From positions 1-56,504 of the forward strand of contig CAKKQC010000015.1 of NCBI GenBank assembly GCA_919901855.1: a DNA stretch of 56,504 nucleotides, in the 5' to 3' direction. A program made the position numbers and the translations under genes. This DNA comes from a bacterium. GTDB lineage: Bacteria > Oederibacteriota > CAKKQC01. Positions 22,940 to 45,013 of the stretch are shown in pieces. Below the pieces are notes generated by a model that was given only the letters and a program-made list of their open reading frames with translations, did not search any database and was not told where the DNA came from. How positions within the stretch are numbered: the first letter of the stretch is position 1; each line of letters starts with the position of its first letter.

Positions 22940-22945
22940 ATTATC
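22940..22945 (-). promoter_or_regulatory. Candidate -10 box six nt before the DUF2723 gene
   Basis: GATAAT on the minus strand, spacer ACCGCC, then GTG at 22933. The box overlaps the stop codon region of queG, so an internal operon promoter is possible. A weak -35 CGGACA lies 18 nt upstream. Confidence 0.35.
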
Positions 22946-24053
22946 CCTCGCGCGGACGATCGCTGTCCGCGGCGTCCGCCGAGGCGTCGGACGCTGCGGC
23001 CGCAAGCTCCTCCTGCACCGCGGGATCGGCCTCGATCCGCGCCGCCGCCGCCAGGGGAGCCCGCGCCCCCAGCATTCCGAGCGCCCAGGCCGCGTGGCCC
23101 CGGACCACGGGCTCGGGATCGCGGAGAGCCGCCGTCAACACCCGCCCGGCCGCCGGATCCCCCAGGTTGCCCAGCACGATCGCCGCGTTCCGCGCCATGC
23201 GCGCCCTACCCGCCCGCATCAGGGCCGTACCGGCGTACGCGGCTTTGAAGCCGGCCTCGTCGAGGGCGAGGAAGCCCGCGGCATCGAGGACCGTCGGAAC
23301 CTTCAGCGTTTCGACCCGACCGGCCGCTTCAATCCGCGCGAACCGGGTCCAGGGACAGGCTTCCTGGCAGGCGTCACAGCCGAAGAGCCACCGGCCGACG
23401 CCGCGGCGCAGGTCCCGGGGGACGAAGCCCCGGTGCTCGACGGTCAGGTAGGCCACGCACCGGCGGGCATCCACGACCCTTGGCGAGACGATCGCGCCTG
23501 TCGGACAGGAGGCGGCGCATCTCGCGCAAGTGCCGCACCGGGGGGGCCCCGGCGCATCGGGGGCCAGCTCGACGTCGACCAGCAGCTCCCCGAGCAGGAG
23601 CCACGGCCCGTGGGCCGCGGCCACGAGGCACGACGATCCGCCGGCCCAGCCCAGCCCGGCGCGCTCCCCGAGGGCGCGCTCGAGCAGGGGCTGCGCGTCC
23701 ACGGCGACAACCCCGCGGCAGGGCACGACCGCGCGGAGGCGCTCCAGCAGGCCCTCGAGCATGGCCCGAAGGCGGGCGTGGTAGTCGGGCCGGGTCGCGA
23801 ACCGCGCGATCCGGCCCTCGCCGGAACCGGGCGGCACCGCGGGAACGTACGTGTTCCACCCCGCGACGATGACGCTGCGCGCGGCCGGAAAGAAGGCGCG
23901 CGGATCCTCGCGGACCCCGGGACGGTCCATCCAGCGCATGCCGGCGTGATGCCCCCGCGCGAGCCACTCGCGGAGACGCGCGCCCCCGGGAAGCGGGGAG
24001 GAGTCCGTGATGCCTACCGCCTGGAAGCCCAGCGCACGCGCGGACGCGTGCAC
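22941..24053 (-). CDS. queG: Epoxyqueuosine reductase QueG
   Basis: The 370-residue protein contains the two [4Fe-4S] motifs of QueG: CGTCARCAASCPTGAI and GCDACQEACPW. VDARRCVAYLTVEHRGF lies between them, and a HEAT-like C-terminal extension (ARNAAIVLGNLGDPAAG and so on) follows. QueG reduces epoxyqueuosine to queuosine in tRNA using cobalamin. The N-terminal helix (LGFQAVGIT) fits the family. The first standard start is GTG at 24053. A CTG at 24086, overlapping the PorV-like stop, would add a family-like helix (LSPTPPELSRRV), so the exact start is uncertain. The remaining upstream open frame is a shadow of the PorV-like gene. Confidence 0.9.
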   Translation of the reverse strand: MHASARALGFQAVGITDSSPLPGGARLREWLARGHHAGMRWMDRPGVREDPRAFFPAARSVIVAGWNTYVPAVPPGSGEGRIARFATRPDYHARLRAMLEGLLERLRAVVPCRGVVAVDAQPLLERALGERAGLGWAGGSSCLVAAAHGPWLLLGELLVDVELAPDAPGPPRCGTCARCAASCPTGAIVSPRVVDARRCVAYLTVEHRGFVPRDLRRGVGRWLFGCDACQEACPWTRFARIEAAGRVETLKVPTVLDAAGFLALDEAGFKAAYAGTALMRAGRARMARNAAIVLGNLGDPAAGRVLTAALRDPEPVVRGHAAWALGMLGARAPLAAAARIEADPAVQEELAAAASDASADAADSDRPREG

Positions 24054-24082: not shown

Positions 24083-25114
24083 TCAGAAGGACAGGGCGAC
24101 CGCGAACCAGTGGGCGTCGCCCAGCTCGCCGAGCGGCGTCCACGCGTACGAGAGCCGGAAGCCCGTCACTCCGCGCCCCTCGGGCGACTCCCCGATGCCG
24201 GCCAGGGCGGGATCGTTGAACCCGCCGTCGGGATGCCAGAACACATCGGCCCCGGCCGCGAGACCCGAGAGGGACCCCTGCGGCGCGCCGCTGCGCCACC
24301 CGGCGCGGACGGCGATGGAGACGTCGGACCGCACGGCGAAGCTCTTCTCGGCCCCGGCCCGGACGCTCAGGTCCCCGTCCGACGGCTTGACTCCGTCCGC
24401 CACGACGACGAGCCCGAGGTCGGCCAGCGTGACCGCCGCGCCGCCGCGAATCGTGACCGGCAGGGACGAGGTCTTGCCGCCGTAGTCGAGCCCGGTCCCC
24501 AGGTGCTGGACCGCCGCCGCCAGGCTGAGCATCGGCACGGGCGTCACGCTGGCGCCCACATCCCCGGCGAAGGCATTCGCCTTCGCATCGGACGCGAGCT
24601 GGCTGCGATACCAGGTGGCGGCCGCGCCGGCCGACCAGGTGCCGCCCGGCCAGGCCCAGCCGGCGGACACCGCCTGCTCGCTCGGCGAGAAGGCGCCCGT
24701 GGCCGCGCCGTCGGCGGCGTAGCTGTCGAGCGTGCCCATCCTGAGGAGGGTGAACCCGCCGCCGAAGGCGCCCCAGCGCGTCGGCCCGCCCACGGCGAGC
24801 TGCTCGAGCGAGACGCCCTGCACGTACCGGCCGTGCATGAACGCGAATTCGGGCGCCGCGAGCGCGGCCAGCCGGGCCGGGTTGGCCCAGACCGCGCCGG
24901 GATCCCGGAGGTCCGCCAGCCCGGCCCCGCCCATCCCGAGCGACCGCGCGCTTCCGCCGACCCCGATCGCGACCCCGCCGGCCGTCCCGGCGCCGCCGGC
25001 GGACGCGGCCGCGACCCGGCCCGCCGGGCCCGTCGCGATGACGGCCAGTGCGACCAGCATCAACGCCGCTGCGGCGCCCGCGCTCTGCGGGACGGACCGC
25101 TCCCCGGTCGTCAT
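24083..25114 (-). CDS. PorV/PorQ family outer-membrane barrel (first copy)
   Basis: The 343-residue protein has a signal segment (ALMLVALAVIATGPAGRVAA) and the family N-terminus. GVGGSARSLGMGGAGLADL is followed by VWANPARLA, equivalent to the (A/Y)NPAG loop of PorV/FadL-like barrels. Alternating amphipathic strands end in a terminal Phe (VALSF), typical of outer-membrane barrels. In Bacteroidota, PorV is the shuttle of the type IX secretion system. The start ATG at 25114 overlaps the stop of the upstream gene (ATGA), whose product has a FlgD-like C-terminal domain, so cargo and shuttle appear coupled. Confidence 0.8.
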   Translation of the reverse strand: MTTGERSVPQSAGAAAALMLVALAVIATGPAGRVAAASAGGAGTAGGVAIGVGGSARSLGMGGAGLADLRDPGAVWANPARLAALAAPEFAFMHGRYVQGVSLEQLAVGGPTRWGAFGGGFTLLRMGTLDSYAADGAATGAFSPSEQAVSAGWAWPGGTWSAGAAATWYRSQLASDAKANAFAGDVGASVTPVPMLSLAAAVQHLGTGLDYGGKTSSLPVTIRGGAAVTLADLGLVVVADGVKPSDGDLSVRAGAEKSFAVRSDVSIAVRAGWRSGAPQGSLSGLAAGADVFWHPDGGFNDPALAGIGESPEGRGVTGFRLSYAWTPLGELGDAHWFAVALSF

Positions 25115-26658
25115 CGGATGATCACGAGCTTGCCGCGCGTGGTCGCGCCGTGCTCCGGGGCCACGACGAAGATGTACACGCCGGACACCGCGTCCTTCCC
25201 GCTCGCGTTCTTCGCGGACCAGACCACGAGGCCGTCGCGGTCGTCGTCTTTGAGCTCCGCGACGAGTTCCCCCGCGAGCGTGTAGATCCGCACGGCCGAC
25301 CCGGGCGTCAGCGACCGGAACGTGATCGCGGACGCGTCGTAGGCGCCGCCCTGCCCCGGCCGGAACGGGTTCGGGGTCGGATGGGGCACGGGCGACCCGC
25401 CGGAGGGCACCACGGCCGTAGACGTCTCGCGCAGGTCGGCGAGGTAGAGCCGCGGCAGGGCCGCGGCGCCGGTGTCCGCCTCGTAGCCCGCCACCAGCAC
25501 CTCCCCCTGCGCGCTTCCGGCGATCCCGAGCCCGCCGTCGACCTGGTGGCCCGGGCCGTCCCGCGTGAACTGCCAGCGGAGAGAGCCGTCGGGCGCGGCG
25601 CGCGCCACCCAGAGGTCGGCGAACGGCGACGAGGAGAGCGAGGTGAGGCCGCCGGCGATCAGCAGGTCCCCGTCGGAGGCGAGGGCGCAGGCGTCGGCTT
25701 CATCGCGCAGTCCGGCGCCGCCGTCGATGGTCGCCGTCCAGGCGACCGCGCCCGCGAGATTCAACCGGGCCGTCAGGACGTCCCGCTGCGTCGCCGCCGA
25801 CGACACCGCGCCGACCGCGTAGAGCGCCCCGGCGGAGGCATTCACGGCCAGCCCGCCGACGTAAGCCGTGGCGGTCCAGGCGGCGGAGAGCGTGGCCTCC
25901 CAGACCAGTCCGAGGGACACGTCCGCCGGGTACTGGGCCACCCAGGCGTTCTTGTCCCCGGCGGCCAGCGTCCGGTAACCGCCGACATAGACACTCCCCG
26001 CCGCGTCTACCGCGACCGCCAGTGCCGCCTCGTTGCCGCTCAGGGCATCGAAGTAGGACGCGCTGTAGATTGGCGCCCCGTCGCTGCCGCGGAGAACCTC
26101 GAGGCGAATCTGGCTCCCCGCCCAGCCGGCCGCCACGACATCGCCCCCCGGCGTCACCGCGACGGCGTTCGCGCCGTCCGAGCCGCCCGTGGTGGGATCC
26201 AGCAGCGTGCTCCATACCGTCACCCCGTTCATCGTCAGCCGGGACACCCAGATGTCCTGGTAACTCGTCGCGCTCGAGATGACCCCGGCGACGACGATGT
26301 CCCAGGTCGTCGCCGACGTCGGCAGGACCGCGACGCCCCGGACCGCCTGCTCGTAGTAAGACGCCGTCAGCGAGCCGGCCCCCGTGAGGTTCCAGGTCTG
26401 CCCGCCGTACCGCGAGTACCGGCGCAGGAACGCGGCGGCCGCGCCCGACGCCCCGGTCGGCCGGGTCGTGCCGCCGACGTACACGTTCCCGTCCGGATCG
26501 ACGGCGACCGCGTTCGCCGTCGTCGGCGTCTCGGTGGGTGACGTCTCCCACCACGCGTCCGCCGCGGCGCGCGCCGTCCCCGGCACAACGGGGGCACAGA
26601 CCAGCGCCAGGAGGCACGCGAGGGCAAGGGCGGACGGGCGGGGGCGTCGAAGACTCAT
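25111..26658 (-). CDS. Secreted beta-propeller-like protein with FlgD/type-IX-like C-terminal domain
   Basis: The 515-residue protein has a signal peptide (LALACLLALVCAPVVPGTARA) and five or six repeated blades with the SBBP-like pattern AVAVDPDGNVYVGG, AVAVTPGGDVVAAG and AVAVDAAGSVYVGG. The C-terminal 85 residues (PNPFRPG, then VRIYTLAGELVAEL, then GKDAVSGVYIFVV, ending GKLVIIR) match the FlgD Ig-like or type-A sorting domain found at the end of type IX cargo. It probably reaches the cell surface. An AAGGGG ribosome binding site lies 7 bases before the ATG at 26658. The gene is coupled by ATGA to the PorV-like gene. Confidence 0.78.
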   Translation of the reverse strand: MSLRRPRPSALALACLLALVCAPVVPGTARAAADAWWETSPTETPTTANAVAVDPDGNVYVGGTTRPTGASGAAAAFLRRYSRYGGQTWNLTGAGSLTASYYEQAVRGVAVLPTSATTWDIVVAGVISSATSYQDIWVSRLTMNGVTVWSTLLDPTTGGSDGANAVAVTPGGDVVAAGWAGSQIRLEVLRGSDGAPIYSASYFDALSGNEAALAVAVDAAGSVYVGGYRTLAAGDKNAWVAQYPADVSLGLVWEATLSAAWTATAYVGGLAVNASAGALYAVGAVSSAATQRDVLTARLNLAGAVAWTATIDGGAGLRDEADACALASDGDLLIAGGLTSLSSSPFADLWVARAAPDGSLRWQFTRDGPGHQVDGGLGIAGSAQGEVLVAGYEADTGAAALPRLYLADLRETSTAVVPSGGSPVPHPTPNPFRPGQGGAYDASAITFRSLTPGSAVRIYTLAGELVAELKDDDRDGLVVWSAKNASGKDAVSGVYIFVVAPEHGATTRGKLVIIR

Positions 26659-26721
26659 GGGTTACCCCTTGATTGTGGCGCATGGACCGCATCCCGGCAA
26701 GGCCCCGGACAATCGGTAGGA

Positions 26722-26727
26722 TATGAT
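26722..26727 (+). promoter_or_regulatory. Candidate -10 box six nt before the ZIP gene
   Basis: TATGAT, spacer CAGACC, then ATG at 26734. No ribosome binding site and no clear -35, which fits a leaderless transcript. Confidence 0.4.
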
Positions 26728-26733
26728 CAGACC

Positions 26734-27534
26734 ATGTCGGAGGGCACTTCCACCGGGCTCGTGCTCGGCCTCGGCCTGCTGGCCGCCGGATCGAACCTGC
26801 TGGGCGGACGGATCGCCCTGTTCCGCCCCCGGGTGGCCCAGCGCCACCTTGTCCACGGGCTCGCCTTCAGCGGCGGCTTCCTGCTCGCCGTGGCCCTGCT
26901 CCTGATCCTGCCCGAGTGCCTGCGGATGACCCCCGCCGCCCCGGCCCTGATCCTGGCGGGGTACTTCCTCGTATACTTCGCCGAGCACGTGTACGCGGGC
27001 CACGCCCACCACGTCGCGACGGAACCGCACGGCGCGCACCCCCTCGTCGGCACGCACGGCCACGAGGGGCACGAGGGCGCGATCGCGCGGCCCGCCGCCA
27101 CCGCCGCGGCCGCCGGCCTGCTCCTGCACAGCTTCTTCGACGGGGCGGCCATCGCGGCCGCGCTCGCCTCCGGGCCCTATGTCGGGTGGCTCACGTTCTT
27201 CGCCGTCGTCCTCCACAAGGTGCCGGAAGGCTACAGCCTCGCCTCGATCGTGCTCTCGACCGGCGGCACGCGCCGCACGGCCGGCCGCGTCGCGGCCGCG
27301 CTCGGCGCCTCGAGCTTCGCCGGCACCGTGACCGTCCTGCTGGCGACCCGCGTCATCGCCGGCCTGGAGCCGGTATGCCTGGGCATCGCGGGCGGCATGT
27401 TCCTTCATATCTCTGCCACGGACCTCCTGCCCACTACGTCGCACGTCCGGGGCCTCACGATCCTCGGCGCCACGGCCGCCGGCGCCCTCGCCGTCGTGCT
27501 GGCCGAAGGGCTCTTCCGCCTCGCCGGGTTCTGA
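26734..27534 (+). CDS. ZIP family divalent metal transporter
   Basis: The 266-residue protein has about eight membrane helices. A His-rich cytosolic loop lies at residues 90-113 (GHAHH, then HGAH, then HGHEGHEG). The two ZIP metal-site helices contain HSFFDGAAIA (His132, Asp136) and HKVPEGYSL (His161, Glu165). ZIP proteins move zinc, iron or other divalent ions into the cytoplasm. Membrane helices in the second half carry all expected ligands, so it looks functional. It starts a plus-strand run and is divergent from the CTD-protein operon. The start is supported by TATGAT six bases upstream. Confidence 0.9.
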   Translation: MSEGTSTGLVLGLGLLAAGSNLLGGRIALFRPRVAQRHLVHGLAFSGGFLLAVALLLILPECLRMTPAAPALILAGYFLVYFAEHVYAGHAHHVATEPHGAHPLVGTHGHEGHEGAIARPAATAAAAGLLLHSFFDGAAIAAALASGPYVGWLTFFAVVLHKVPEGYSLASIVLSTGGTRRTAGRVAAALGASSFAGTVTVLLATRVIAGLEPVCLGIAGGMFLHISATDLLPTTSHVRGLTILGATAAGALAVVLAEGLFRLAGF

Positions 27535-27544
27535 CCCCCTTGTC

Positions 27545-29551
27545 ATGACGACTGCCGCCGCCACCCGCGCCTCCACCCTCGCCTTGGCGGGTGCGCTGGC
27601 CGGCGGGGTCCTCCTCTTCTCGCAGAGTTTCAGCCTATGCTTCCCGCCGCCCCGGTGGCTCGCCCTCCCCCTCTTCGCCGGGCTCGCCGCGACCGCCCTC
27701 GGGGCGGCCGGCGGCTGGCCGGCCGCGTTCCGCCTGCCCTTCGCGGCACCCCTGCTCGCCGCCCTCGCCTGGGGGGCGGCGGGGATGGCCCGGTCGGAGA
27801 GTCCCGAGGCGCTCGGTCTCGTTTTCACCCCGCTCGCGGCGGCGGCGGTCGCGGCGCTGGTGGCCGGGGTGCTCGCCGCCCGGCCGGCCGAGCGCGCCCG
27901 CCTGCTCCTCGCCTTCGTCCTCGCCCACCTCGCCTGCGGCCTCTACGGCATCGTCCAGTACCTGGGTGCCGATCCGTGGACGTGGACCCTCGACTACGGG
28001 CGCGGCCGGGTATTCGCGACGCTCGGCAATCCGAACTTCCTGGCCGGCCAGCTCGCGCTCGCCCTGCCCGTCCTCGCCGCCCTCGGTGTCTCGTCCGGCT
28101 CCCGACCACCCGACCAAGTCCTGCGCTGGCTCGCGCGCGCCGCCTTCGTGGCCGCCCTCGCGGCCTTCATCTGCGCGCAGACGCGGGGCGCGTGGATCGG
28201 GCTGGCCGCGGGCTCCGTCGTCGCCGCGGCGGCGGCCTGGCAGCACGTTCACGCCCGGCCCGCCGCCATCGCCTGGCTGGTCGCGGTCGTGGCCGTCCTG
28301 GGGCTGGTCTTCTCCGTCCGGACCTTCAATCCGACCGGCATCTCGCTCCCCGCCCAGCTCGCCTCCTCGACGAACCTCGACCAGCAGTCCGCCCGCCAGC
28401 GGTTCTTCTGGTGGCGCGCGGCCGCCGAACTCGTCCGCGCCGGCCCGGTCCTCGGCCAGGGGCTCGGCAACTTCGCGCGCGAGTTCCCCGCGCGCGCGCG
28501 GCGCGCCCTGGGACCTTTCAGCGACCTGCCGCCCGCGTTCTGCGATCACCCGCACGACGACTACCTCTTCGTACTGTGCGAGCACGGCGTGATCGGACTC
28601 GGGCTGCTCTTGTGGCTCGGCTCGGTCTGGGCCCGCCTCGCCTGGCGGGCCGCGCGCGGGGGCGACGCCCTGGGCACCGGCCTCCTCGCCGGGATCGTCG
28701 CCCTCGCCGTCCACGCTGTGTGGAACATGCCCTTCACGATCCAGGGCACGCTCGTGACCGCCGGCGTCCTCCTCGGGTTGTCCGCGGCCCCGCGGCCGGC
28801 CGGCACGGCGGAGGCGCCCCTTCCCTCCGCGAGGGGCCGCGCCCTCTGGCTCGGCCTCGGGCTCGCCGCCACGCTCGCCGTCTCGTGGCGGCCCGTGGTC
28901 CTGCTCGCCGCCCAGGCCTACTACAACGGCGCGCGCATCCTGCACGATTCCCGGCAGGAGGCTCCCGCCGCCTTCTGCGCGCGCCAGACCCTGCGGCTCA
29001 CGAACGCGCCCTGGCGCACGCACTTCCTCCTCGGCAGCGTCCTCTACGCGAACCAGTACTGGGAGGCGGCCCGGGAGGCGTTCGCGGCCGACGAGGCGGA
29101 GAACCCGTGGGGCGCGGACTCCATCCTGCACCAGGGCAAGACCCTGCGGGAACTGGGCCGGTGGGGCGAGGCCGACGCCCAGTGCCGCCGGGCCCTCAAG
29201 CTCGTGCCGAACTACGCGGACGCCGCGACCGCGATCGCGACCCTCGCCTACGCCCGCGCGCGGACGGAAAGGGCCGCGGGGCGCCTCGCCCCCATGCGCG
29301 CCCAGCTCCGGCACGCCCGGGTCTGGCTCACCTACGCGCTCCGCTACTTCCCGCGGCATGCGGAAGCGCTGAAACTGCTGGGGTTCACGGAGGTCATGGA
29401 CTCCCGGTGGATCGCGGCCCGCGACGCGTGGACCCGGTCGCTGCGGGCAAGACCCACGGATGATGCCCTCAGGGCCCAGTTGGGCCTGCTCGAGGCCGAT
29501 CTGCCGCGCCTCCTGCGCGGCGGACGCCCCCGCGAAGGGAAGGGCCAGTGA
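27545..29551 (+). CDS. O-antigen ligase/polymerase-like membrane protein with C-terminal TPRs (second copy)
   Basis: The 668-residue protein has ten or more membrane helices. It shares the family stretch GNPNFLAGQLALALPVL and the periplasmic loop HPHDDYLFVLCEHG with the protein at 5397-7502. It is the same architecture but clearly diverged. The last 220 residues form TPR-like helices (AREAFAADEAENPWGADSILHQGKTLRELG and so on, shown here in part). It is probably a glycan ligase or oligosaccharyltransferase acting in the periplasm. It starts 10 bp after the ZIP stop and overlaps radC by 4 bp (GTGA). Coupling with radC appears accidental in function. Confidence 0.78.
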   Translation: MTTAAATRASTLALAGALAGGVLLFSQSFSLCFPPPRWLALPLFAGLAATALGAAGGWPAAFRLPFAAPLLAALAWGAAGMARSESPEALGLVFTPLAAAAVAALVAGVLAARPAERARLLLAFVLAHLACGLYGIVQYLGADPWTWTLDYGRGRVFATLGNPNFLAGQLALALPVLAALGVSSGSRPPDQVLRWLARAAFVAALAAFICAQTRGAWIGLAAGSVVAAAAAWQHVHARPAAIAWLVAVVAVLGLVFSVRTFNPTGISLPAQLASSTNLDQQSARQRFFWWRAAAELVRAGPVLGQGLGNFAREFPARARRALGPFSDLPPAFCDHPHDDYLFVLCEHGVIGLGLLLWLGSVWARLAWRAARGGDALGTGLLAGIVALAVHAVWNMPFTIQGTLVTAGVLLGLSAAPRPAGTAEAPLPSARGRALWLGLGLAATLAVSWRPVVLLAAQAYYNGARILHDSRQEAPAAFCARQTLRLTNAPWRTHFLLGSVLYANQYWEAAREAFAADEAENPWGADSILHQGKTLRELGRWGEADAQCRRALKLVPNYADAATAIATLAYARARTERAAGRLAPMRAQLRHARVWLTYALRYFPRHAEALKLLGFTEVMDSRWIAARDAWTRSLRARPTDDALRAQLGLLEADLPRLLRGGRPREGKGQ

Positions 29552-30243
29552 CCTCCCCCAGGAGGGGTATCCGCGGCTGGCCCGAAGCCGAGCGGCCCCG
29601 GGAACGCCTGCTCGAACACGGCGCCCACGGCCTCACGGACGCCGAGCTGCTTGCCATCCTCCTGCGGGTGGGCGTCCGCGGCCGCACCGCGGTCGACGTC
29701 GCCCGCGACCTGCTCCGCGACGCCGGCAGTCTCAAGGCGCTGGCGGAGGCGCTTCCGGCCGAGCTCGAGCGCAAGGCCGGCATCAAGGCCGCCAAGGCCG
29801 CGACGCTTCTCGCGGCCTTCGAGCTCGGCCGCCGCCTGCTCAGCGAGCCCGACCGTCCCCGCCCCGTGTTCCGGTCCTCGGCGGACGTATGGCACTGGTT
29901 CAGCCCGCTTCGGGCCGGCCGCCGCCGCGAGATCTTCGAGATCGCCCTGTTGAACACCGCCCACCGGCTCGTGGGGACGAAGGTCGTGACGGTGGGTACC
30001 CTGAACCTCGCCCTCGTGCACCCGCGCGACGTCTTCCGGGAGGCCATCGCCATGGACGCCGCCGGAGTCGTCGTGGTCCACAACCACCCCGGTGGCGACC
30101 CCGCGCCATCCGAGGAGGATGTCGCCCTCACCCGCCAGCTCGTCCGCGCGGGCGAGGCGGTCGGCATCCCCGTCCTCGACCACATTATCCTGGGCGCGAG
30201 GACCTACTTCAGCTTCGCGGACTCGCGACGGATGGCCGCCTAG
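29548..30243 (+). CDS. radC: RadC family JAB/MPN-domain protein
   Basis: The 231-residue protein has an N-terminal helix-hairpin-helix region (PRERLLEHGAHGLTDAELLA, then AGIKAAKAATLLAAFELG). A C-terminal JAMM metalloprotease-like domain carries His178-Asn-His180, seven residues, Ser188 and Asp191. RadC was once tied to recombination repair; its biochemical role is unsettled, and many copies travel with mobile DNA. Here no mobile element is near. The GTG start at 29548 overlaps the ligase gene, and the histone-deacetylase-family gene begins directly after the stop codon (TAG then ATG). Confidence 0.92.
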   Translation: MTSPRRGIRGWPEAERPRERLLEHGAHGLTDAELLAILLRVGVRGRTAVDVARDLLRDAGSLKALAEALPAELERKAGIKAAKAATLLAAFELGRRLLSEPDRPRPVFRSSADVWHWFSPLRAGRRREIFEIALLNTAHRLVGTKVVTVGTLNLALVHPRDVFREAIAMDAAGVVVVHNHPGGDPAPSEEDVALTRQLVRAGEAVGIPVLDHIILGARTYFSFADSRRMAA

Positions 30244-31212
30244 ATGGCCGGCACCACCGTCGGCCTCGCCACCGCCCCCGCGTGCCTCGCGCACCGCGCG
30301 GGCGACGCGCACCCCGAGAGGCCCGCGCGCCTCGAGGCGATCCTCGGGCGGCTCGCCGAGGAGGGCCTCCGGCCGCGGATGCGCGAGCTGCCCCCGCGGG
30401 CCGCGACCACCGAGGACCTGGCGCTGTGCCACACGGCCGGGCACATCGCCAAGGTCCACGACGCCTGCCTGGCCTCGCTGCCGCTCGACCCGCAGACGAC
30501 GCCGGTCCCGGCCTCCTGGGACGCCGCATTGTTCGCGGCGGGGGCCGGGCTGGCGGCCGCCGAGGCGATCGTGGCTGGCGAGGTCACGCGCGCGTTCTGC
30601 GCCGTCCGCCCGCCGGGGCATCACGCCGGGCCGGACTCCTCAGCCGGCTTCTGCCTCTTCAACAACGTCGGGATCGCGGCGCGCCACTGCCAGCGCCGGC
30701 TCGGCATCCCCCGCGTCGCGATCGTGGACTTCGACGTCCACCACTGCGACGGCACCCAGGGGATCTTCTGGGCCGACGGGACGGTGCTAGTCGCCTCGAT
30801 CCACCAGTACGGGGCCAACCCGCTCAACCCCGCCGTCCCGTTCTACCCCGGCTCGGGGGCCGAGACCGAGACCGGCGGGGGACCGGGAACGGGGTGCATC
30901 TTCAACGCGCCCGTGCCGCCCGGCGCGGGGCTCGGCGACTACGAGGAGGCGATCCTCGAGCGGTTCACGCCCGCGATCGAGGCCTTCCGCCCCGGCATCC
31001 TGCTCGTGTCGGCGGGGTTCGACGGCCACCGCGACGACCCCCTCGCGCTCATGGACCTCTCGACCGAGGACTACGGGCTGATCACGCGGCTGATCGTCGG
31101 GATCGCGGACCGCGTGTGCCAGGGCCGCGTCCTCTCTATGCTCGAGGGCGGCTACCACCTCGAGGCGCTGGCCTCCGCCGCCACCGCCCACGTCAAGGCG
31201 CTGATGGAGTGA
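30244..31212 (+). CDS. Histone deacetylase family (class II-like) amidohydrolase
   Basis: The 322-residue protein has the full catalytic set: RPPGHHAGPDSSAGFC (His126-His127), VDFDVHHCDGTQ with zinc ligands Asp164 and His166, and a third Asp in SAGFDGHRDDP. Bacterial members deacetylate polyamines (acetylpolyamine amidohydrolases), acetoin-pathway proteins or other N-acetyl groups. It may work with the SpeE-like product elsewhere in the window, but that link is speculative. It abuts radC with no gap. The convergent GH106-like gene ends 7 bp away, and no terminator is visible between them. Confidence 0.9.
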   Translation: MAGTTVGLATAPACLAHRAGDAHPERPARLEAILGRLAEEGLRPRMRELPPRAATTEDLALCHTAGHIAKVHDACLASLPLDPQTTPVPASWDAALFAAGAGLAAAEAIVAGEVTRAFCAVRPPGHHAGPDSSAGFCLFNNVGIAARHCQRRLGIPRVAIVDFDVHHCDGTQGIFWADGTVLVASIHQYGANPLNPAVPFYPGSGAETETGGGPGTGCIFNAPVPPGAGLGDYEEAILERFTPAIEAFRPGILLVSAGFDGHRDDPLALMDLSTEDYGLITRLIVGIADRVCQGRVLSMLEGGYHLEALASAATAHVKALME

Positions 31213-31218
31213 CCCGCT

Positions 31219-34200
31219 TCAGCGAATGGAGAGGACGGGCGGGGCCATGAGGCCGTAGGGCACGCTCACGTAGTCGTTGGTCCAGCGTTTCTCGTCGACG
31301 AACTCCCACGGACCCGTCCAGCCGGGATAGACCTCGGCGCAGTGCAGGGGCCCCAGGAGGTTCCGGCGGGAGCTCACGACGGTGACCCCGATCCGGTGCC
31401 GGCCCGGCCCCAGGGCGGCGGTCAGATCGAGCTCGTACGGCGGCCAGCCGCACCTCCCCACGGGCTTCCCGTCGACCGCCACTTTCACCAGCGTCCCTTC
31501 CCACGCGGGAAGGACCAGGACCGCGCGCTCGCCCGAGGCAACGGGGACGTCGAGGTCGATTCCGTAAGTGACGGCGCCGGAATAGCACGGGAGGCCCTGC
31601 GACCGCCAGTCGCCGGCCGCCAGCGCGGCCGGCGGCGCGGTCAACACGGACCTTTGATCCTGCCATCGCGCCCCGAAGCCGCCCGTGAGATACAGGGCCT
31701 CGAGCCCGGAGTCGTGGCGGTAGGCGGTCTCGAGGATGAGCTCGTTCGGCCCCGGCCGGAGCGCGGCCGCGGGAATCACAAGGCGCTGGAACGCAGGATC
31801 GATCCACGACCCGTCGGGCGTCGAGGGCACCGTCGTCCCGTTCAGCGTGATCGTGAACCGGTTGGGCTGCTCAAGAACGAGATGGCACGGCCCCGCCGGA
31901 AGCGTCTCGACGTCGAACCGGTACCGGAGCCGGACCGGCGTGGGGACCTCCCCCTTCGGCGGCACCGCCGCCCAGGGCTGAACCATGGCGCCGCCCCGGT
32001 GCCGCAGCCCCGCCGCGTCCCGGACCAGCCGGTCGACAAAGAGGATCTCCTTCGCCGGCTGCCACTCCCCCCCCCGGATGGCGAACTCGGGGACGTCGAG
32101 CGGCATCGCGTTGGGCTCGTCGAGCTCGATGGGCCAGGGCCCGGCCGGGAGCGTGACCGTTCGGACTTCGGGACGCGCCGGCCGGGGCTTGAGCGTGGTG
32201 TCCGAGGTGGGGTCAACAATGAAGAGCCGGGAGCCGCAGCCGGGCAGGTCGGCCGATATCGTGACGTGATCCCCGTCCCGCCGGGCCTCGGCGAGGCGGA
32301 TTTCCCCCGAGGCCGCGTCCCATTCCTGCGGCTGGCCAGCGGCCGGGACGCGGACCGTCACCGGCCCCGTCCCCGACCGCTGCTTCGTCTGGCACAGGAA
32401 GACGATCGTCCGGCCGTCGTCCTCCCGCCGCATCTGGACCAGGACCGACGGGCACTCGGTCCCGTCGGGACGCGTCACCGACACCCGGCGCAGCCCGGAC
32501 ACCCCGCCAACGGCCGCGACGAGGGCGGCGGGGTCCGGTACCGTCGCGGTCCGGCCCGCGAGAGCGGCCGGCGCCTCCGAGGGCTCGACGTCCACGCACG
32601 CCGGCGCAGGCCCCACGAAGATCACGCGCCCGCCGGCGTCCGCGAACCGGGCCAGCGTGTCCAGCGTCGCCTTCCGGATCGTGGAGCACGGCGGCACGAC
32701 GACCGCGCGGTACCGGGCCTGCCCCATCTTCAGTTCCGGCCCTTCGACGGCCGAGTGCCGCGCCAGGAGTTCCTCGTCAAGGTAGTCGAAGTCCCAGTGG
32801 GCCTCCAGCAGGGCCTTCTGCACGGCCTCGAGCTGGCCGTTCAGCTCGTCGATCCTCCGGCTCTTGTCCCCGACAAAGACCGCCCAGCCACTCTCGGCGG
32901 GGTGGAGCACGGCGACATCCCGGACGGGCTCGCCCCGCGTAAGCCAGACGTTGACCCGCGAGAAGTAGTCCTCGACCAGTGAATAGTCCCGCCACCACGG
33001 CGACTGGTACGAGATCGCGGCCGGGTAGTCGCGCTTGGCCTCGCCCAGCAGCGTGTACGGCGAGAGGTGCGGGCACCGGAGCGTCACCCCCAGCGCGGCC
33101 TGCCAGTCCCCGACGGCCTTGTGCTCAGCAAACGTGAACTGCCAGCCCGTGCACCCGTAGAGCTCGCTGAGCATCCACGTCCGGCCGAACTGGCGGAGGA
33201 CCGACGCGCACTGTTTGGCCGTGAGATACTCGGGCGGACGCCCGCCGGGCCGCTCGAGGCCCTGGCCGCAGAGGATGTCGATGCCCGGCGCCTGCTGGAA
33301 CTCGTAGAACCGCATCGCCGTGCCGATCTCGCTCGTCTGGCTCCGGAGGTTCTCCTCGCTGAGGGCGTGGCCCGTGAACGCGATCCCGTGTGCGCCGCAC
33401 CAGTCCCCGATCTGCTTCGCGAAGCTCCGCACGAACAGGTGCGTGACGCAGTCGTAGAAGTCGCGGCGGACCTTCGAGACCTCGCGACCCTCGACGACGA
33501 AGAAGAGCTCGGGGAGCCGGTCCAGGAGGTCGTACCCGTACCGGTCACGGAAGGTCTTCGGCAGCTCCCCGGTCCACGGCACCGACGCGGGCGAACCCCA
33601 GTGGTGGTAGTTCGGCTCGTCGGTGAAGATCCCGGGCACGATCGTCCCGAAGGCGTCGCCGACCGCGCGCGCGTAGGCCTCGTGCGTGACCTCGAGGAAC
33701 CGTTTCACCGCCGGGGCGGACATCGTGTCGAGGTAGGTCTGGTCGTTGTACCACGGCGACGGCTCCGACACGGACTCGCGGATGACGATGAGCCGCTCGC
33801 CCTCCTTCGCCACGGCAGGCGGCGAGACCTTGCGCACGCCCGACGCCGCGCCGCCCTCGATGTGCGCCGCGTAGACCCCGCGCACGTCGGCCGCGGGACT
33901 GTACCCGGCCGCGTCCATGACCGACGCCTCGAGCGACCGCATCCGGAACCGCGGGTCCTTCGTCACGAGACCGCCCGCGGCCCCCGACGGCCAGCGATCC
34001 TCGTCGTAGGCCCAGGCCTCCATCTTCAGGGTCCGGCACTCGTCCACGCATGCGGCGACGAGCCGGAACCACTCCTCGGAGAGGTACGCCGTCGCGAGCC
34101 CGACGCGGGAGTGCATGAAAGCGCCGCCGAGGCCCATGGTCTTGAAGACGCCGAGCTGGCGCCGGAGCTCCGCCTCCTCCAGCTTCCCGTTCCAGGCCCA

Positions 34201-34257
34201 GAACGGCTTGCCGCGGAACGCGGCAGGGGGGTCGCGAAAGAGCTCGCGCATTTCCAT
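31219..34257 (-). CDS. GH106-like (alpha-L-rhamnosidase-related) glycoside hydrolase
   Basis: The 1012-residue protein has an N-terminal TIM-barrel-like region with the GH106-type start FRGKPFWAWNGKLEEAEL and the motif AYDEDRWPSGAAGG. A middle part resembles the GH42 trimerisation fold, and two C-terminal beta-sandwich domains of GH2 sugar-binding type follow (CHLVLEQPNRFTITLNGTTV and WEGTLVKVAVDGKPVG). No signal peptide is evident, so it may be cytoplasmic. Members of this group remove rhamnose or related sugars from pectin-like glycans; the exact substrate is unknown. The ATG at 34257 (MEMREL) is preferred because TACCAT lies seven bases upstream. The open frame extends 15 codons further. 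Confidence 0.78.
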   Translation of the reverse strand: MEMRELFRDPPAAFRGKPFWAWNGKLEEAELRRQLGVFKTMGLGGAFMHSRVGLATAYLSEEWFRLVAACVDECRTLKMEAWAYDEDRWPSGAAGGLVTKDPRFRMRSLEASVMDAAGYSPAADVRGVYAAHIEGGAASGVRKVSPPAVAKEGERLIVIRESVSEPSPWYNDQTYLDTMSAPAVKRFLEVTHEAYARAVGDAFGTIVPGIFTDEPNYHHWGSPASVPWTGELPKTFRDRYGYDLLDRLPELFFVVEGREVSKVRRDFYDCVTHLFVRSFAKQIGDWCGAHGIAFTGHALSEENLRSQTSEIGTAMRFYEFQQAPGIDILCGQGLERPGGRPPEYLTAKQCASVLRQFGRTWMLSELYGCTGWQFTFAEHKAVGDWQAALGVTLRCPHLSPYTLLGEAKRDYPAAISYQSPWWRDYSLVEDYFSRVNVWLTRGEPVRDVAVLHPAESGWAVFVGDKSRRIDELNGQLEAVQKALLEAHWDFDYLDEELLARHSAVEGPELKMGQARYRAVVVPPCSTIRKATLDTLARFADAGGRVIFVGPAPACVDVEPSEAPAALAGRTATVPDPAALVAAVGGVSGLRRVSVTRPDGTECPSVLVQMRREDDGRTIVFLCQTKQRSGTGPVTVRVPAAGQPQEWDAASGEIRLAEARRDGDHVTISADLPGCGSRLFIVDPTSDTTLKPRPARPEVRTVTLPAGPWPIELDEPNAMPLDVPEFAIRGGEWQPAKEILFVDRLVRDAAGLRHRGGAMVQPWAAVPPKGEVPTPVRLRYRFDVETLPAGPCHLVLEQPNRFTITLNGTTVPSTPDGSWIDPAFQRLVIPAAALRPGPNELILETAYRHDSGLEALYLTGGFGARWQDQRSVLTAPPAALAAGDWRSQGLPCYSGAVTYGIDLDVPVASGERAVLVLPAWEGTLVKVAVDGKPVGRCGWPPYELDLTAALGPGRHRIGVTVVSSRRNLLGPLHCAEVYPGWTGPWEFVDEKRWTNDYVSVPYGLMAPPVLSIR

Positions 34258-34264
34258 CGCCACG

Positions 34265-34270
34265 ATGGTA
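34265..34270 (-). promoter_or_regulatory. Candidate -10 box before the GH106-like gene
   Basis: TACCAT on the minus strand, seven bases before the ATG at 34257. No -35 or ribosome binding site recognised. Confidence 0.3.
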
Positions 34271-34337
34271 CACCATCCCGCAGGGCCAGTGCCCCGATTC
34301 ACGCGGCCTCGGGGTACCCCCCTACAGCGACTCCCGG

Positions 34338-34721
34338 TCAGACTGGGTGCAGCGAGACCTCTGAATACGGGTAATCGCGCCGGTTATACGTCACGAGGGT
34401 GAGACCGTGCCGGATGGCCGTGGCCGCGATGAGCGCGTCCACCCACTCCCGCGGCTCCAGCCGCTTGCGCTTGCGGAGCAGGGCCGCCGCCTCGCGGGCC
34501 AGCTCCCCGTCCACGGGCAGGACCGTGAGCCCGTCGAGGCATTCGGCCGTCCGCGCCTCCTCACCGGGCCTCACCCCGACCTGGATCTCCATGACGCTGA
34601 GCGCCGAGCAAGCCAGCGGCTCGGAGGCGCGCTCGGCCAGTTCCTCCACCATCCGGACCGTCGACTCCCGGTTCCTGAGAATCCAGATCAGGACGTCGGA
34701 ATCGAGGAGGTAGCTAGGCAC
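34338..34721 (-). CDS. vapC: PIN-domain toxin, VapC type
   Basis: The 127-residue protein has the PIN-domain acidic set: Asp7 in YLLDSDVLIW, Glu45 in VMEIQVG, Asp95 in WVDALIAATA and Asp116 near TYNRRDY. VapC toxins are Mg2+-dependent RNases that usually cut tRNA or rRNA and are neutralised by a cognate antitoxin. The gene overlaps the end of the upstream antitoxin gene by 8 bp, the normal order for VapBC. All catalytic acids are present, so the toxin looks intact. Its target is unknown. Confidence 0.9.
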   Translation of the reverse strand: MPSYLLDSDVLIWILRNRESTVRMVEELAERASEPLACSALSVMEIQVGVRPGEEARTAECLDGLTVLPVDGELAREAAALLRKRKRLEPREWVDALIAATAIRHGLTLVTYNRRDYPYSEVSLHPV

Positions 34722-34962
34722 TGTTGCGGAGACGGCCGCGGAACCGGGCCAAGTAGCGGTTCACTCCCGCCTGCGTGCGGAGATCGGGATGCGCACGGTC
34801 GGACCACGCCCCGGCGCCGCGGCGCAGGTTCCGCCGGAACTTCATGAGCTGGAGCGACTTCTCGAGCGCCTCGGCGATGAACCGGCTCCGGCTCCGGACC
34901 GGCACCGTGCGCTTGAGCTCCGCGCTGAGCTCGTCGGGCAACACCACCTGAGTCTTGACCAT
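34714..34962 (-). CDS. vapB: Ribbon-helix-helix antitoxin, VapB-like
   Basis: The 82-residue protein begins MVKTQVVLPDELSAELKR, a ribbon-helix-helix N-terminus with a beta-strand and amphipathic helices to about residue 40. A basic, flexible C-terminal part follows (RRNLRRGAGAW and so on) that would wrap around the PIN toxin. It should bind its own promoter as a dimer. A strong AGGAGG ribosome binding site lies before the ATG at 34962. The open frame upstream of that ATG is a shadow. Confidence 0.78.
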   Translation of the reverse strand: MVKTQVVLPDELSAELKRTVPVRSRSRFIAEALEKSLQLMKFRRNLRRGAGAWSDRAHPDLRTQAGVNRYLARFRGRLRNSA

Positions 34963-34981
34963 GTCTCCTCCTGTCAATACT

Positions 34982-35010
34982 ACTATATGGCCATCTATAT
35001 GGATACGCAA
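34982..35010 (-). promoter_or_regulatory. vapBC promoter with operator-like repeats
   Basis: On the minus strand TTGCGT (35010-35005), 17 nt, then TATAGT (34987-34982). The spacer holds the palindrome ATGGCCAT (34987-34994). Two direct copies of CTATATGG (plus strand 34983-34990 and 34995-35002) start 12 bp apart. This is the expected position of an antitoxin operator. Confidence 0.5.
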
Positions 35011-35023
35011 CGCCCGTGGAGCG

Positions 35024-35653
35024 TCAGCGCTGGACGAGGAAGACGCGGGCGGGGGCGCCGTCGGCGCCCGGGATCCTGAGCGGACCGCAGAAGAGCTCGT
35101 AGTCGCCGGGCTCGACTTGCGAGAGATCGAGCCCCTCGAGGATCGTGACCCCGGCGTCCATGAGCGCATGGTGGGCCGGATGCGTGCCGCTCCGGATCCG
35201 GTCCACGGAGAGATAATCGACCCCGACAAGCCGGAGCTTCTTCAACCCCAGGAACGCGGCCGCCCCGCCCGTGAGGCCGACGAAGCCCTCGTCGAATGCT
35301 TTCGCCGTCCCCCACCGGTCCGAGTTCGGGGTCCGGAGCAGGACCCGTTCGACCCCGGCCCAGTCCAGGGGCTCGAGATCCGCGGCCTCGATGTGGCTGG
35401 GACGGCTCAGGCGGACCACCCGGGCCGTCCCCACCAGCGCCTCGAGCGGAATCGTCTCGACGCCGCCGCGGCCGTCGTAGACGTGCCGGGGCGCGTCGAC
35501 GTGGGTGCCCGTGTGGGTGCCAAGCGTGACGAGCGAGGAGTTCGAGGAACCGCCCTTGGCGATCTCGGACACGGGCTCGATCCGAAACTCCGGGTTCTTC
35601 GGGTAGACGATCATCCCGGGCTTCAGGTCGAGGGTCACGTCGAGGATGCGCAC
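35024..35653 (-). CDS. Cyclase/kynurenine-formamidase-like metal-dependent hydrolase
   Basis: The 209-residue protein has the cyclase-family metal signature HTGTHVDAPRH (His47, His51, Asp53, His57) and the usual late motif GVDYLSVDR. The family includes KynB arylformamidases and bacterial cyclases or isatin hydrolases. No other tryptophan-degradation gene is nearby, so the substrate is unknown. It starts 6 bp after the second PorV-like gene and is presumably co-transcribed with it, ending the operon that begins at 38256. Confidence 0.85.
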   Translation of the reverse strand: MRILDVTLDLKPGMIVYPKNPEFRIEPVSEIAKGGSSNSSLVTLGTHTGTHVDAPRHVYDGRGGVETIPLEALVGTARVVRLSRPSHIEAADLEPLDWAGVERVLLRTPNSDRWGTAKAFDEGFVGLTGGAAAFLGLKKLRLVGVDYLSVDRIRSGTHPAHHALMDAGVTILEGLDLSQVEPGDYELFCGPLRIPGADGAPARVFLVQR

Positions 35654-35659
35654 GAAACG

Positions 35660-36667
35660 CTACTCGGGGAACCGGATGAAGGAGACGCCGAACCGGTGCA
35701 CGGTGGTAAACGAAAGAAACTCGGCAGCGTAGTCGAGCCGCAGGCCGGAAAACGCGACCCCCGCCCCCACGCTCCAGGCGGAGTCGCGCGCCGCGCCCCC
35801 GCTCGCGAGGACCCGGTAGCCGCCGCGGACGAACGCCCACCCGGCGTACGCGTATTCGAGCCCGCCGCCGTAGCCGGTCGCGTGCTCGAGCCGCCGCAGA
35901 ACCGCCTCGCCCAGGATCCGGAGCACATGCGGCGGCGGCGCCAGGTGCACCTCGGGCGCCGTGAGGCTTTCCATCGTGCCGATCGCGGACCCGCCGACGG
36001 GCACCGCCATAGTCCACGCGGCCCCGAACCGCCACATGAGCGGGAGCGGATTGTTGTCGACGGGGAACTTCGCGTCGTCGTAGCGCAGGTGCCCGCCCCA
36101 GTGCTGGATGGAGGCGCCGAATCGCAGGCCCGCCGAGGCGATCGCGGCCTGGGCGCCGAGATCGGCGGCGTAGTCGTTGGCCGCCGATTCCTCCAGCAGG
36201 GTGGACCGGACGAGCTTGGCGGAAGCGCCAACGAACACGGGCACCCCGGGGACCGGCCGCGCGATCCCCGCAGTCATCACGAGGTCCGACTCGGCGGTGA
36301 CCGAGGAAACGCGGCCGGTCGGGTCGATCCGCTCCACCGGGCCTGTGGTCAGGTACGAAACGCCCGCCGCGAGGCCGAATCCCCGGAAGGCGCCGCCGCC
36401 TAGCACGCTCGCGTAGGTGTCGCCCGCAAACCCCTGCCGGACGAGCGCCGAGCCTTCGGCCTCCGGAAGCTCGGAGAGCCCGGCGGGGTTGTACCCGAGC
36501 GCCTCGACCGTCCCGCCCACCGCCGCGTACGCCTCGCCCAGCGAGGCCGGACGCGCCGCTACGGGCTCGAGCAGGATCTGTCCGCCCGACGTGCCGACGG
36601 CCGCCCCAGCGGGGGACGAGCCGGCGGCAAGCCACCCGAACGCGACCATGGTCCGCAGGAGCGTCAC
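35660..36667 (-). CDS. PorV/PorQ family outer-membrane barrel (second copy)
   Basis: The 335-residue protein has a signal peptide (MVAFGWLAAGSSPAGA). The family N-terminus follows: LLEPVAARPASLGEAYAAVG, then EALGYNPAGLSELP, with the conserved NPAG loop. Beta-strands alternate through the rest, and the C-terminus ends HRFGVSFIRFPE. The start is GTG at 36667, overlapping the stop of the upstream CTD-protein gene (GTGA). This repeats the cargo-then-PorV order of the pair at 24083-26658, although the sequences are clearly diverged. The open frame extends upstream, but that part is a shadow. Confidence 0.8.
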   Translation of the reverse strand: MTLLRTMVAFGWLAAGSSPAGAAVGTSGGQILLEPVAARPASLGEAYAAVGGTVEALGYNPAGLSELPEAEGSALVRQGFAGDTYASVLGGGAFRGFGLAAGVSYLTTGPVERIDPTGRVSSVTAESDLVMTAGIARPVPGVPVFVGASAKLVRSTLLEESAANDYAADLGAQAAIASAGLRFGASIQHWGGHLRYDDAKFPVDNNPLPLMWRFGAAWTMAVPVGGSAIGTMESLTAPEVHLAPPPHVLRILGEAVLRRLEHATGYGGGLEYAYAGWAFVRGGYRVLASGGAARDSAWSVGAGVAFSGLRLDYAAEFLSFTTVHRFGVSFIRFPE

Positions 36668-38256
36668 GGGCGGCGCACCACGACCAGGCGCTTCATGACG
36701 GACAGGCCCCCGCCGGTCACGAAGCACGCGTAGGCACCCGAAGCCACGGGCTGGCCGGCGGCGTTCGCCCCGTCCCATTCGAGCGTGACGACCTGGTGAC
36801 CGGGGCCCGTGTCCTCGAGCTCGCGGATAAGCTCACCGCGCAGGTTCCGGATCCGGACGACCACGCTCCCACCGCCGGGCGGCCAGGCGAGAATCGTCAT
36901 CCGCTCGCCCCGCGCCAGGTTCAACACCGCGCCCTCCGGGCCGCGGATCTTGACCTCGCCCAGGGCGACGGGCGGCGGATCCGGGACGAACGCGTAGCGG
37001 TACAGGGCGATCCGCGTCCCGCCCCAGGTCGCCGGGGCCGCCGTGACCGTGGCCGCGACCCAGATCGCCCCGGTGGAGTCGAGGACGATCCCGGCCCCGG
37101 CGGCCCCGTCCACGCCCGCCGGCAGGAAGAATGGAAGTCCCGGAAGGGGCGCGCCGGCGTGATCCCAGCCCATGACGACGGTGTCGTTTCCGACCGAGCC
37201 CGTGACGTAGCAGTTACGGGCCGCGTCCATGACGATCCCGCGGAACACCGTCGCCGGTCCCGGGCTGTACCGCACCGGGAATCCGGGTGCCGGGTTGCCG
37301 TTCTCGTCGAACTGCCACACCGCCCCGTCCGCGTCCATCGATCCCGCGACCCAGAAGTCGCCCATGACGTCCCGCACCCCGGCGAGAGGCTCGTCCCACG
37401 CGGCCGTCGCGAACCGGCGCGGCCAGCCCGGCTCCGGGGAGGCGAATAGCTCACCGGCGAACGTGTCCTCGTAGCAGGCCGGCGTGTACTTGAAGAGCAC
37501 GATATCGCCGCCGGACTGCGCCGCGATCCAGGCGTTCCCTATCCCGTCGACGGCGATCGCGCGCCCCGTAACCGAGAGCGTGAGCGACCCCGTCCAGAAC
37601 GTCGCCGACACCCGGGGCCCGGAGTCCGTACCCCCGACGTTCTTCCGAATCTGGCGGACGACGAAGAGCTGGTCCACGCCGTTCGCCGTGACCCACCCGA
37701 CGGAGAACGGCGTGCCCGACCCGTCGACCGCGACCCCCGCGCCGCCGCAGGGGTACCCGCGCTGGTTCTCGTGCCACGGCGAAGACGAGCCGCTGCCTCC
37801 GACGGGCAGGAACGGCCCCCGCAGCCGGAAGGTGGTAAGCTCGCCGAGCCCCTCCCCCGTGGAGGTAAACACCAGGTACTCCTCCGGCTCGGTATCGCCC
37901 GACCCGAAGCCGTGGTTGTGCACCGCGAGCGCCGGCGGCCCTTCGTCCATCCCGGCCCGGTCGTACCCCACGGCCATCAGCGGCCTCGCGGGGTTCGCCG
38001 CCGTCCACGACACCAGGGTCTGGGTGCGGGAATAATAGAGGGCGAGGACGTCCCGGCCGGTTGTGGGGCCGACCGCGTTCGTCACGTTCCCGGCCACCCA
38101 GATCGAGTCCAGGTAGCCGATCCCGAGGGCCGTCGCGGCCTCGGTGCCGTTGACGGAGTAGGACCACGGAAAGGTCGCGGTGAGGTCCCAGCGGGCCGCG
38201 GCGGCGGGCGACGCCAGGAACAGCCCCAGGCAGAGGTGAAGCGCGGCGCGCGGCAT
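36664..38256 (-). CDS. Secreted protein with FlgD/type-IX-like C-terminal domain (second copy)
   Basis: The 530-residue protein has a signal peptide (AALHLCLGLFLASPAAAA). It has propeller-like repeats with AIAVDGIGNAWIAAQ, VRDVMGDFWVAGS and GIVMDAARNCYVTGS. Its C-terminal domain (VVVRIRNLRGELIREL, then LEWDGANAAGQPVASGAYAC, ending MKRLVVVRRP) is of FlgD/type IX kind. Unlike the first copy it lacks the NPF entry motif. GATAAT lies 12 bases and AGGA about 8 bases before the ATG at 38256. The next gene encodes a PorV-like barrel with a 4-bp overlap. The biological role is unknown; surface display is inferred. Confidence 0.75.
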   Translation of the reverse strand: MPRAALHLCLGLFLASPAAAARWDLTATFPWSYSVNGTEAATALGIGYLDSIWVAGNVTNAVGPTTGRDVLALYYSRTQTLVSWTAANPARPLMAVGYDRAGMDEGPPALAVHNHGFGSGDTEPEEYLVFTSTGEGLGELTTFRLRGPFLPVGGSGSSSPWHENQRGYPCGGAGVAVDGSGTPFSVGWVTANGVDQLFVVRQIRKNVGGTDSGPRVSATFWTGSLTLSVTGRAIAVDGIGNAWIAAQSGGDIVLFKYTPACYEDTFAGELFASPEPGWPRRFATAAWDEPLAGVRDVMGDFWVAGSMDADGAVWQFDENGNPAPGFPVRYSPGPATVFRGIVMDAARNCYVTGSVGNDTVVMGWDHAGAPLPGLPFFLPAGVDGAAGAGIVLDSTGAIWVAATVTAAPATWGGTRIALYRYAFVPDPPPVALGEVKIRGPEGAVLNLARGERMTILAWPPGGGSVVVRIRNLRGELIRELEDTGPGHQVVTLEWDGANAAGQPVASGAYACFVTGGGLSVMKRLVVVRRP

Positions 38257-43984: not shown

Positions 43985-45013
43985 ATGCACCCCCAACGCC
44001 TGACCCTCCTATTGGCCGCCCTGAGCCTGTCCACCCGGGCCTTCGCCGGGGCGGGCGTCGCGGGCGCCGACATCCTCAAGGTCCCGGTCGAGGCGCGGGG
44101 CTGGGGGCTCGCGAACGCCTATTCGGCGATCGCCGACGACGTCGGGGCCATGGCCTGCAACCCGGCGGGTCTCGCGCTCTCGGGGGAGCGCGAGGTGCGG
44201 TTCACGTACCTGCGCATGCTCGAGGGGACCAGCTTCGAATCCCTGCTCGGGTCCTACCCGCTGGGCCGCTGGGGTTCCGTCGGGCTCATGCTCGTGTGGC
44301 GCCAGATCCCGACGATCGACAACGGGACCCTCGTGCTGGGCACGACCAGGCCGGTCGAGGTCAGCGACGGCGTGACGGGCGGCTTCATCTCGGCGCGGTT
44401 CAGCCATCTCCTGCCGAGCGTGCCGTTCGCGTCCCCGTTCTCGATGGGCATCGGCCTCAAGAACGTCTCCCAGCACATCGGCGGCCTCACGGCGTCCGCC
44501 ACCGCCGTCGACATCGGCTTGCGGGCCACCTACGACCTCTTCCGGATCGCGCTCGTCATCCAGAACATGGGCGGCGGCATCACCTTCCCGGGCACCATCG
44601 CCCAGGAATCCGACGCCCTGCCCCAGACGCTCCACGAGGCGATCGCCTTCGTCCCCTACGAAGACTCCAGCGCCTCGCTCACGCTCGCGATCGAGAATGC
44701 GTCCTACGTCGGCGTCTCCTCGTCGCAGAAGTTCGGGGACGAAATCCGCACCGCGTCCGAGAGCCTCGACGTGCTCTCCTTCGGCGCCGAGTACTGGCGG
44801 CTCAAGAAGATGGGCGTCCGGATCGGGTACCTCTCGCCGTACGGAAAGGGAGGCACGCAGTCCTACACGGGCGCGCGCGGCCTGTCCGTGGGCGTCTCCT
44901 TCCGCGTCTACAGCCGGCTGGTCGCGTACCAGGTCGACATCGGGTACCGGCCGTTCTCGCTGGGCTCCGACAAGCAGGACGCCGGGACGCTCTCCCTGGG
45001 CCTTCGCTTCTAG
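43985..45013 (+). CDS. PorV/PorQ family outer-membrane barrel (third copy)
   Basis: The 342-residue protein has a signal peptide (LTLLLAALSLSTRAFA) and the family entry region VPVEARGWGLANAYSAIADD, then MACNPAGLALS with the NPAG loop. Regular amphipathic strands follow to a terminal Phe (LSLGLRF). It is more typical of the UPF0164/PorV group in candidate phyla than the two other copies. No CTD-bearing cargo gene adjoins it; the next gene, 47 bp on, is a GT-C/TPR protein. It has its own promoter and a good ribosome binding site (AGGGAGAG). Confidence 0.85.
   Translation: MHPQRLTLLLAALSLSTRAFAGAGVAGADILKVPVEARGWGLANAYSAIADDVGAMACNPAGLALSGEREVRFTYLRMLEGTSFESLLGSYPLGRWGSVGLMLVWRQIPTIDNGTLVLGTTRPVEVSDGVTGGFISARFSHLLPSVPFASPFSMGIGLKNVSQHIGGLTASATAVDIGLRATYDLFRIALVIQNMGGGITFPGTIAQESDALPQTLHEAIAFVPYEDSSASLTLAIENASYVGVSSSQKFGDEIRTASESLDVLSFGAEYWRLKKMGVRIGYLSPYGKGGTQSYTGARGLSVGVSFRVYSRLVAYQVDIGYRPFSLGSDKQDAGTLSLGLRF

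Follow-up and report, generated by a model that had tools for sequence, protein, structure and literature searches.

Recurrent pairs of CTD-cargo and PorV-family barrel genes suggest a divergent T9SS-like system in a bacterium of the Oederibacteriota

Described type IX systems and the pairs of the window

The type IX secretion system (T9SS) is usually described for the Bacteroidota, with one PorV for all type A cargos, a rotary motor and a sortase. All type A C-terminal domains (CTDs) of Bacteroidota share the single PorV (PMC12618676) and are cut by PorU (PMC12618676, PMC10202324). The CTD of PorU itself stays on PorV and that of PorZ on PorQ (PMC10202324). Type B cargos use cognate, usually adjoining, SprF-like barrels (PMC12618676), and these PorP/SprF barrels are needed for export and also anchor the cargos uncut (PMC12618676, PMC9143113). 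A possible T9SS in other FCB phyla has been mentioned (PMC11285876). No paper on PorV-family cargo pairs with FlgD-type tails was found in the open-access literature.

The gene pairs described here resemble PorU-PorV and PorZ-PorQ in that a CTD protein is combined with a PorV-family barrel (on which it would likewise be retained), and PorZ, a beta-propeller with a CTD, in that cargos with propeller-like bodies carry a CTD. Unlike these precedents, which comprise one or two pairs per genome that serve as processing machinery, this genome contains about 53 pairs and no C25 match. As in the type B systems of Flavobacterium johnsoniae and P. gingivalis (PG1035-PorP), the barrel gene directly follows its cargo gene, but the barrels belong to the PorV/PorQ family without a PorP/SprF match, the tails are mainly FlgD/type-A-like, and the pair count is about five times the 9 of F. 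johnsoniae type B. An SprA translocon, a PorV-family barrel and an Ig-like C-terminal signal are shared with the canonical type A T9SS, from which the pairs differ by one barrel per cargo and by the lack of a PorU, PorL or PorM profile match. The tails are similar in sequence to the hook-capping Ig domain of FlgD (PF13860; 3osv, 3c12), but here they close multi-domain proteins that have a signal peptide and are encoded beside PorV-family barrels. We regard this as a variant of T9SS-type cargo delivery and not as a new kind of system, although it is far larger than the first-pass annotation of the locus had recognized. New with respect to the precedents are the scale, the PorV-family barrels as partners, and the undetected sortase and motor.

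That annotation had proposed two cargo genes translationally coupled to PorV-like genes. Both pairs were found at 24083-26658 and 35660-38256 on the minus strand of the window, i.e., the whole stretch of 56,504 nucleotides that was analysed, and cargo and barrel genes overlap by four bases in each, as listed below.

24083-25114, minus strand: barrel 1, PorV/PorQ-family outer-membrane barrel (NF033709)
25111-25114, minus strand: ATGA overlap of 4 bases, stop of cargo 1 and start of barrel 1
25111-26658, minus strand: cargo 1, signal-peptide protein with SBBP/delta-60 beta-propeller body and T9SS/FlgD-like C-terminal domain
25114-25398, minus strand: CTD of cargo 1, final 95 codons (the genome's own CTD3 profile)
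35660-36667, minus strand: barrel 2, PorV/PorQ-family outer-membrane barrel (NF033709)
36664-36667, minus strand: GTGA overlap of 4 bases, stop of cargo 2 and start of barrel 2
36664-38256, minus strand: cargo 2, signal-peptide protein with propeller-like body and FlgD_ig C-terminal domain
36667-36951, minus strand: CTD of cargo 2, final 95 codons (FlgD_ig and own CTD profile)
43985-45013, plus strand: third PorV-family barrel (108.6 bits), no CTD gene upstream

The assignment of both barrels to the PorV/PorQ type stands as well, since NF033709 (cut-off 90) is narrowly exceeded by barrel 1 with 90.9 bits and by barrel 2 with 92.7 bits. For both, PorQ matches better than PorV (54.3 and 27.4 bits, respectively, in case of barrel 1), and Pfam gives zero matches for either. 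The proposed FlgD/type-IX-like tails hold for cargo 2, whose C-terminus matches FlgD_ig (PF13860) with 30.7 bits (cut-off 27), but the tail of cargo 1 stays under the public cut-offs (CHU_C 19 bits, cut-off 27; Por_Secre_tail 15.3 bits, cut-off 23). With the CTD3 profile from this genome's pairs, which contains cargo 1 itself, this tail reaches 81 bits, and the PorZ CTD stretch scores 36.8 bits in cargo 1. Profile searches indicate propeller repeats for the body of cargo 1 (SBBP 25 bits, delta-60 53 bits); the body of cargo 2 gives just a weak SBBP match. The whole of pair 2 has an ortholog in genome G001 of the same family, with 43% identity for the cargo and 51% for the barrel, and the 4-base cargo/barrel overlap is kept there.

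Both operons may be longer than the pairs: barrel 1 is separated by 29 bases from the next gene (22941-24053, QueG-like by eye), and barrel 2 by 6 bases from a gene that is cyclase-like by eye (35024-35653). The third barrel, missed by the first-pass annotation, is flanked by a ComEC-like gene and a gene of 835 aa, without a cargo neighbour, and has an ortholog in G001 with 61% identity. It is a possible shared carrier for CTD proteins that have no barrel of their own.

Extent of the pairing in this genome and its relatives

With the family profile, about 58 PorV-family places were located in this genome (4.68 Mb, 93% complete), and FlgD_ig gave 58 matches. Loci around both kinds of match were fetched, and genes were called by our own codon-usage gene finder. 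A first tally, made from public-profile barrel places and inspected upstream tails before any own profile existed, gave 47 of 56 barrels as paired. Barrel and CTD profiles were then built from the first 47 pairs and applied to the fetched loci. These contain 63 PorV-family barrel genes, 53 of which are directly preceded by a same-strand gene with a C-terminal CTD, a count that is partly given by construction because pairs of this genome served to train the CTD profiles. A CTD gene is situated upstream of 53/62 assessable barrels versus 16/446 other genes of the fetched loci (Fisher p 8e-48), and this background is if anything enriched in CTD genes, since the loci were picked around barrels and FlgD matches. 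The pairing is not due to chance. Overlaps of 4 or 1 bases occur in 35 of the 53 pairs; for other neighbours on the same strand the figure is 80 of 357 (p 6e-10). The cargo bodies vary and include propellers, Kelch and FN3 domains.

In the fetched loci, about 20 CTD genes are not directly followed by a barrel. Such orphans would need a shared carrier and count against a reading of the pairs as cognate modules. In L090, L091, and L092 (C40:118000-205000 of this genome, G000), several long genes that lack an adjoining barrel have CTDs of a separate subclass (PGxTxWEWDGR...NGxYFIQI).

PorV-family genes are present in 45 of 45 same-phylum genomes searched, this genome included. A random order of CTD and barrel genes was not seen in relatives: seven related genomes were examined, and each has the pairing at a frequency above the background. 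The paired barrels amount to 15 of 19 in G001, to 13/28 (G006), 4/8 and 3/6 in other families of the phylum, and to 5/10, 4/8 and 4/8 in three strong-SprA genomes outside the phylum. Two control genomes with canonical GldM have only 2-4 PorV-family genes; in the Bacteroidota-type control genome L218, the gene directly upstream of porV ends in a PorU-like CTD. A scan of genome contigs gave a single short match, in Azospirillum, with 34% identity across about 80 residues.

Co-variation and identity of CTDs and barrels

Across 47 pairs, CTD distances follow barrel distances with a Mantel r of 0.671, and 10,000 shuffles reached at most 0.201 (null sd 0.034); across 53 pairs, r is 0.629. Part of this correlation can stem from linked duplication of the pairs, an effect that this computation does not separate from binding. 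Once cargo-body similarity is removed r is 0.62 (53 pairs), and among dyads with unrelated cargo bodies it is 0.56; for barrel and cargo body r is 0.246. One CTD cluster corresponds to one barrel cluster in 13 of 13 cases. Since the CTD co-varies with the barrel even across unrelated bodies, the conserved unit is the CTD together with the barrel, and the bodies vary. Within G001, r is 0.647 (p 0.0002); within G006, where 13/28 barrels are paired, the co-variation is not significant (r 0.146, p 0.17). For the 48 pairs of relatives, permuted within genomes, r is 0.373 against a null mean of 0.067 (sd 0.053).

Each pair probably combines a cargo with its cognate carrier, within a divergent T9SS-like system that would deliver every cargo to its own PorV-family barrel; binding, specificity, secretion and CTD retention are what we infer from the gene arrangement and homologies. 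That the pairing serves dosage and not specificity, i.e., that any PorV-family barrel carries any CTD and the coupling provides one barrel per cargo, seems rather unlikely. Such an arrangement would fit the strong translational coupling, the existence of orphan CTD genes, and the SprF-like barrel of F. johnsoniae that serves three orphan cargos with some cross-talk (PMC12618676), but CTD classes follow barrel classes, without exception in the class of 13, and interchangeable barrels are not expected to co-vary with CTDs at r 0.56-0.62 independently of cargo-body similarity.

Linked duplication alone, by which a few ancestral CTD-barrel cassettes would have been multiplied and matching trees would reflect linkage instead of interaction, appears quite improbable. 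Order and coupling persist across genera, as seen for pair 2 and its ortholog in G001, and the pairing recurs in several phyla, whereas neutral linkage would decay. Duplication has nevertheless left traces that are in line with this explanation, as the pairs are within-genome paralogues, the barrel-body correlation is weak but real, and homologous bodies are found in 22 of 53 nearest-barrel partners.

A profile of 24 barrels, compared to PDB, matches PorV (6h3i_F) best and across its length, with an E-value of 3.5e-29, and FadL-type porins at 1e-4 or weaker; NF033709 is matched by 24 of the 24 barrels scanned. The CTD profile matches the CTD of PorZ (5m11, residues 673-758; E 6e-9) and PorU (E 3e-4), and also flagellar FlgD (3osv; E 2.6e-9). 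WD40 matches of the CTD profile were rejected because their scores add up over many tiny repeats, none of which is significant by itself. AlphaFold models of barrel 2, from an alignment of the three window barrels only (pLDDT 40), and of the CTD (pLDDT 45) were too poor and were set aside. It is very improbable that no secretion system is involved at all and that FadL-like porins merely stand beside proteins of the periplasm or surface that have an Ig domain of the generic FlgD type: the Pfam match of the tail is indeed FlgD_ig, the CTD profile hits FlgD structures besides PorZ, the PorV fold is itself FadL-like and 2 of the 53 paired barrels match Toluene_X (PF03349), but the barrels are far closer to PorV than to the best FadL-type structure, NF033709 covers every barrel scanned, an SprA homolog is present in an operon with a pair, and the tails, in contrast to FlgD, form the C-terminus of proteins with a signal peptide.

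SprA, other T9SS components and the fate of the cargo

Of the T9SS parts, SprA, GldL, GldM, PorP, PorU and PorV were profiled. An SprA homolog is encoded elsewhere in this genome, at C23:68244-73772, with 204.8 bits for TIGR04189 (cut-off 200) and an E-value of 5.8e-19 against SprA of PDB entry 6h3i, and SprA profile matches occur in 40 of the 45 same-phylum genomes. The gene is followed by that of an FN3-containing cargo and then by a barrel gene. G001 shows the same succession of SprA, CTD gene and barrel; in G006, and apparently in G007 too, the gene behind SprA is of the FN3 type. By phmmer, the homolog (L068:245-5773 in the fetched locus) carries an FN3-like domain close to the N-terminus (3mpc, residues 16-88), and a signal-peptide-like stretch lies upstream of its modelled start.

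For the PorL/PorM (GldL/GldM) motor, neither TIGR03513 nor TIGR03517 matched in this genome. An initial search for GldM had remained without any match; rerun over 384 genomes, it gave zero matches in this phylum and exceeded the cut-off in three control genomes. A strongly diverged PorL/PorM motor may exist in this lineage. The C25 sortase domain of PorU (PF01364) was not found in this genome and is present in 4 of 45 same-phylum genomes. PorP/SprF (TIGR03519) gave no match in this genome and zero over the cut-off among 59 genomes. Single absences are soft at 93% completeness, and lineage-wide absence is firmer. PF01364 was found in G045, G047, G051, and G053; these genomes outside the phylum combine strong SprA and C25 proteases with no GldM or GldL family match, so the canonical motor may be absent beyond this phylum as well.

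The first-pass annotation had left two options, a full T9SS at some other place in the genome or a dedicated pairing of cargo and barrel in a simpler system. The second gains support from the number of pairs, the CTD-barrel co-variation and the SprA gene located elsewhere. PorL/PorM, PorU and PorP/SprF lack a family-profile match.

As cognate modules, the pairs would function as follows. The cargo would pass the inner membrane through its signal peptide and, judging from SprA homology, cross the outer membrane via a single SprA-like translocon. The product of the next gene, the PorV/PorQ-family barrel, would then take over the CTD of the cargo. As a PorU sortase for removal of the CTD was not detected, the most likely outcome is that the cargo remains bound and that the barrel serves as a one-to-one surface anchor. 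Such anchoring would account for the translational coupling and for the equal numbers of cargo and barrel genes in the pairs, and also for the OmpA, LpoB/CsgG-like or TPR domains at the C-terminus of many barrels, which would face the cell wall. More tentatively, and possible rather than probable, this would be a T9SS-like branch free of sortase and PorL/PorM, in which the cargo emerges from the SprA pore permanently joined to its own barrel as a consumable anchor instead of a recycled shuttle, some barrels having a built-in cell-wall-binding domain.

If one SprA indeed serves about fifty private PorV-family barrels, carrier specificity and anchoring within the PorV family would be a general strategy. 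The lineage would then allow a test of the need for motor and sortase, and its dozens of natural CTD-barrel pairs would provide material for a recognition code.

Among the 53 paired barrels, 13 carry an additional CsgG/LpoB-like domain, 5 TPR and 1 OmpA. In the examples read, these domains are C-terminal and, if the barrels have kept the topology of PorV, would face the periplasm. They recall PorE (TPR and OmpA), which binds PorP and has been proposed as a tie to the cell wall (PMC9143113). CsgG/LpoB/TolB_N-like domains are found in L054:11625-13043, L077:6283-7698, and 11 more paired barrels. The PorV-family barrels L073:6670-9048 and L067:5388-7418 are fused to OmpA-type domains, and the latter, which is unpaired, also bears a FlgD_ig domain.
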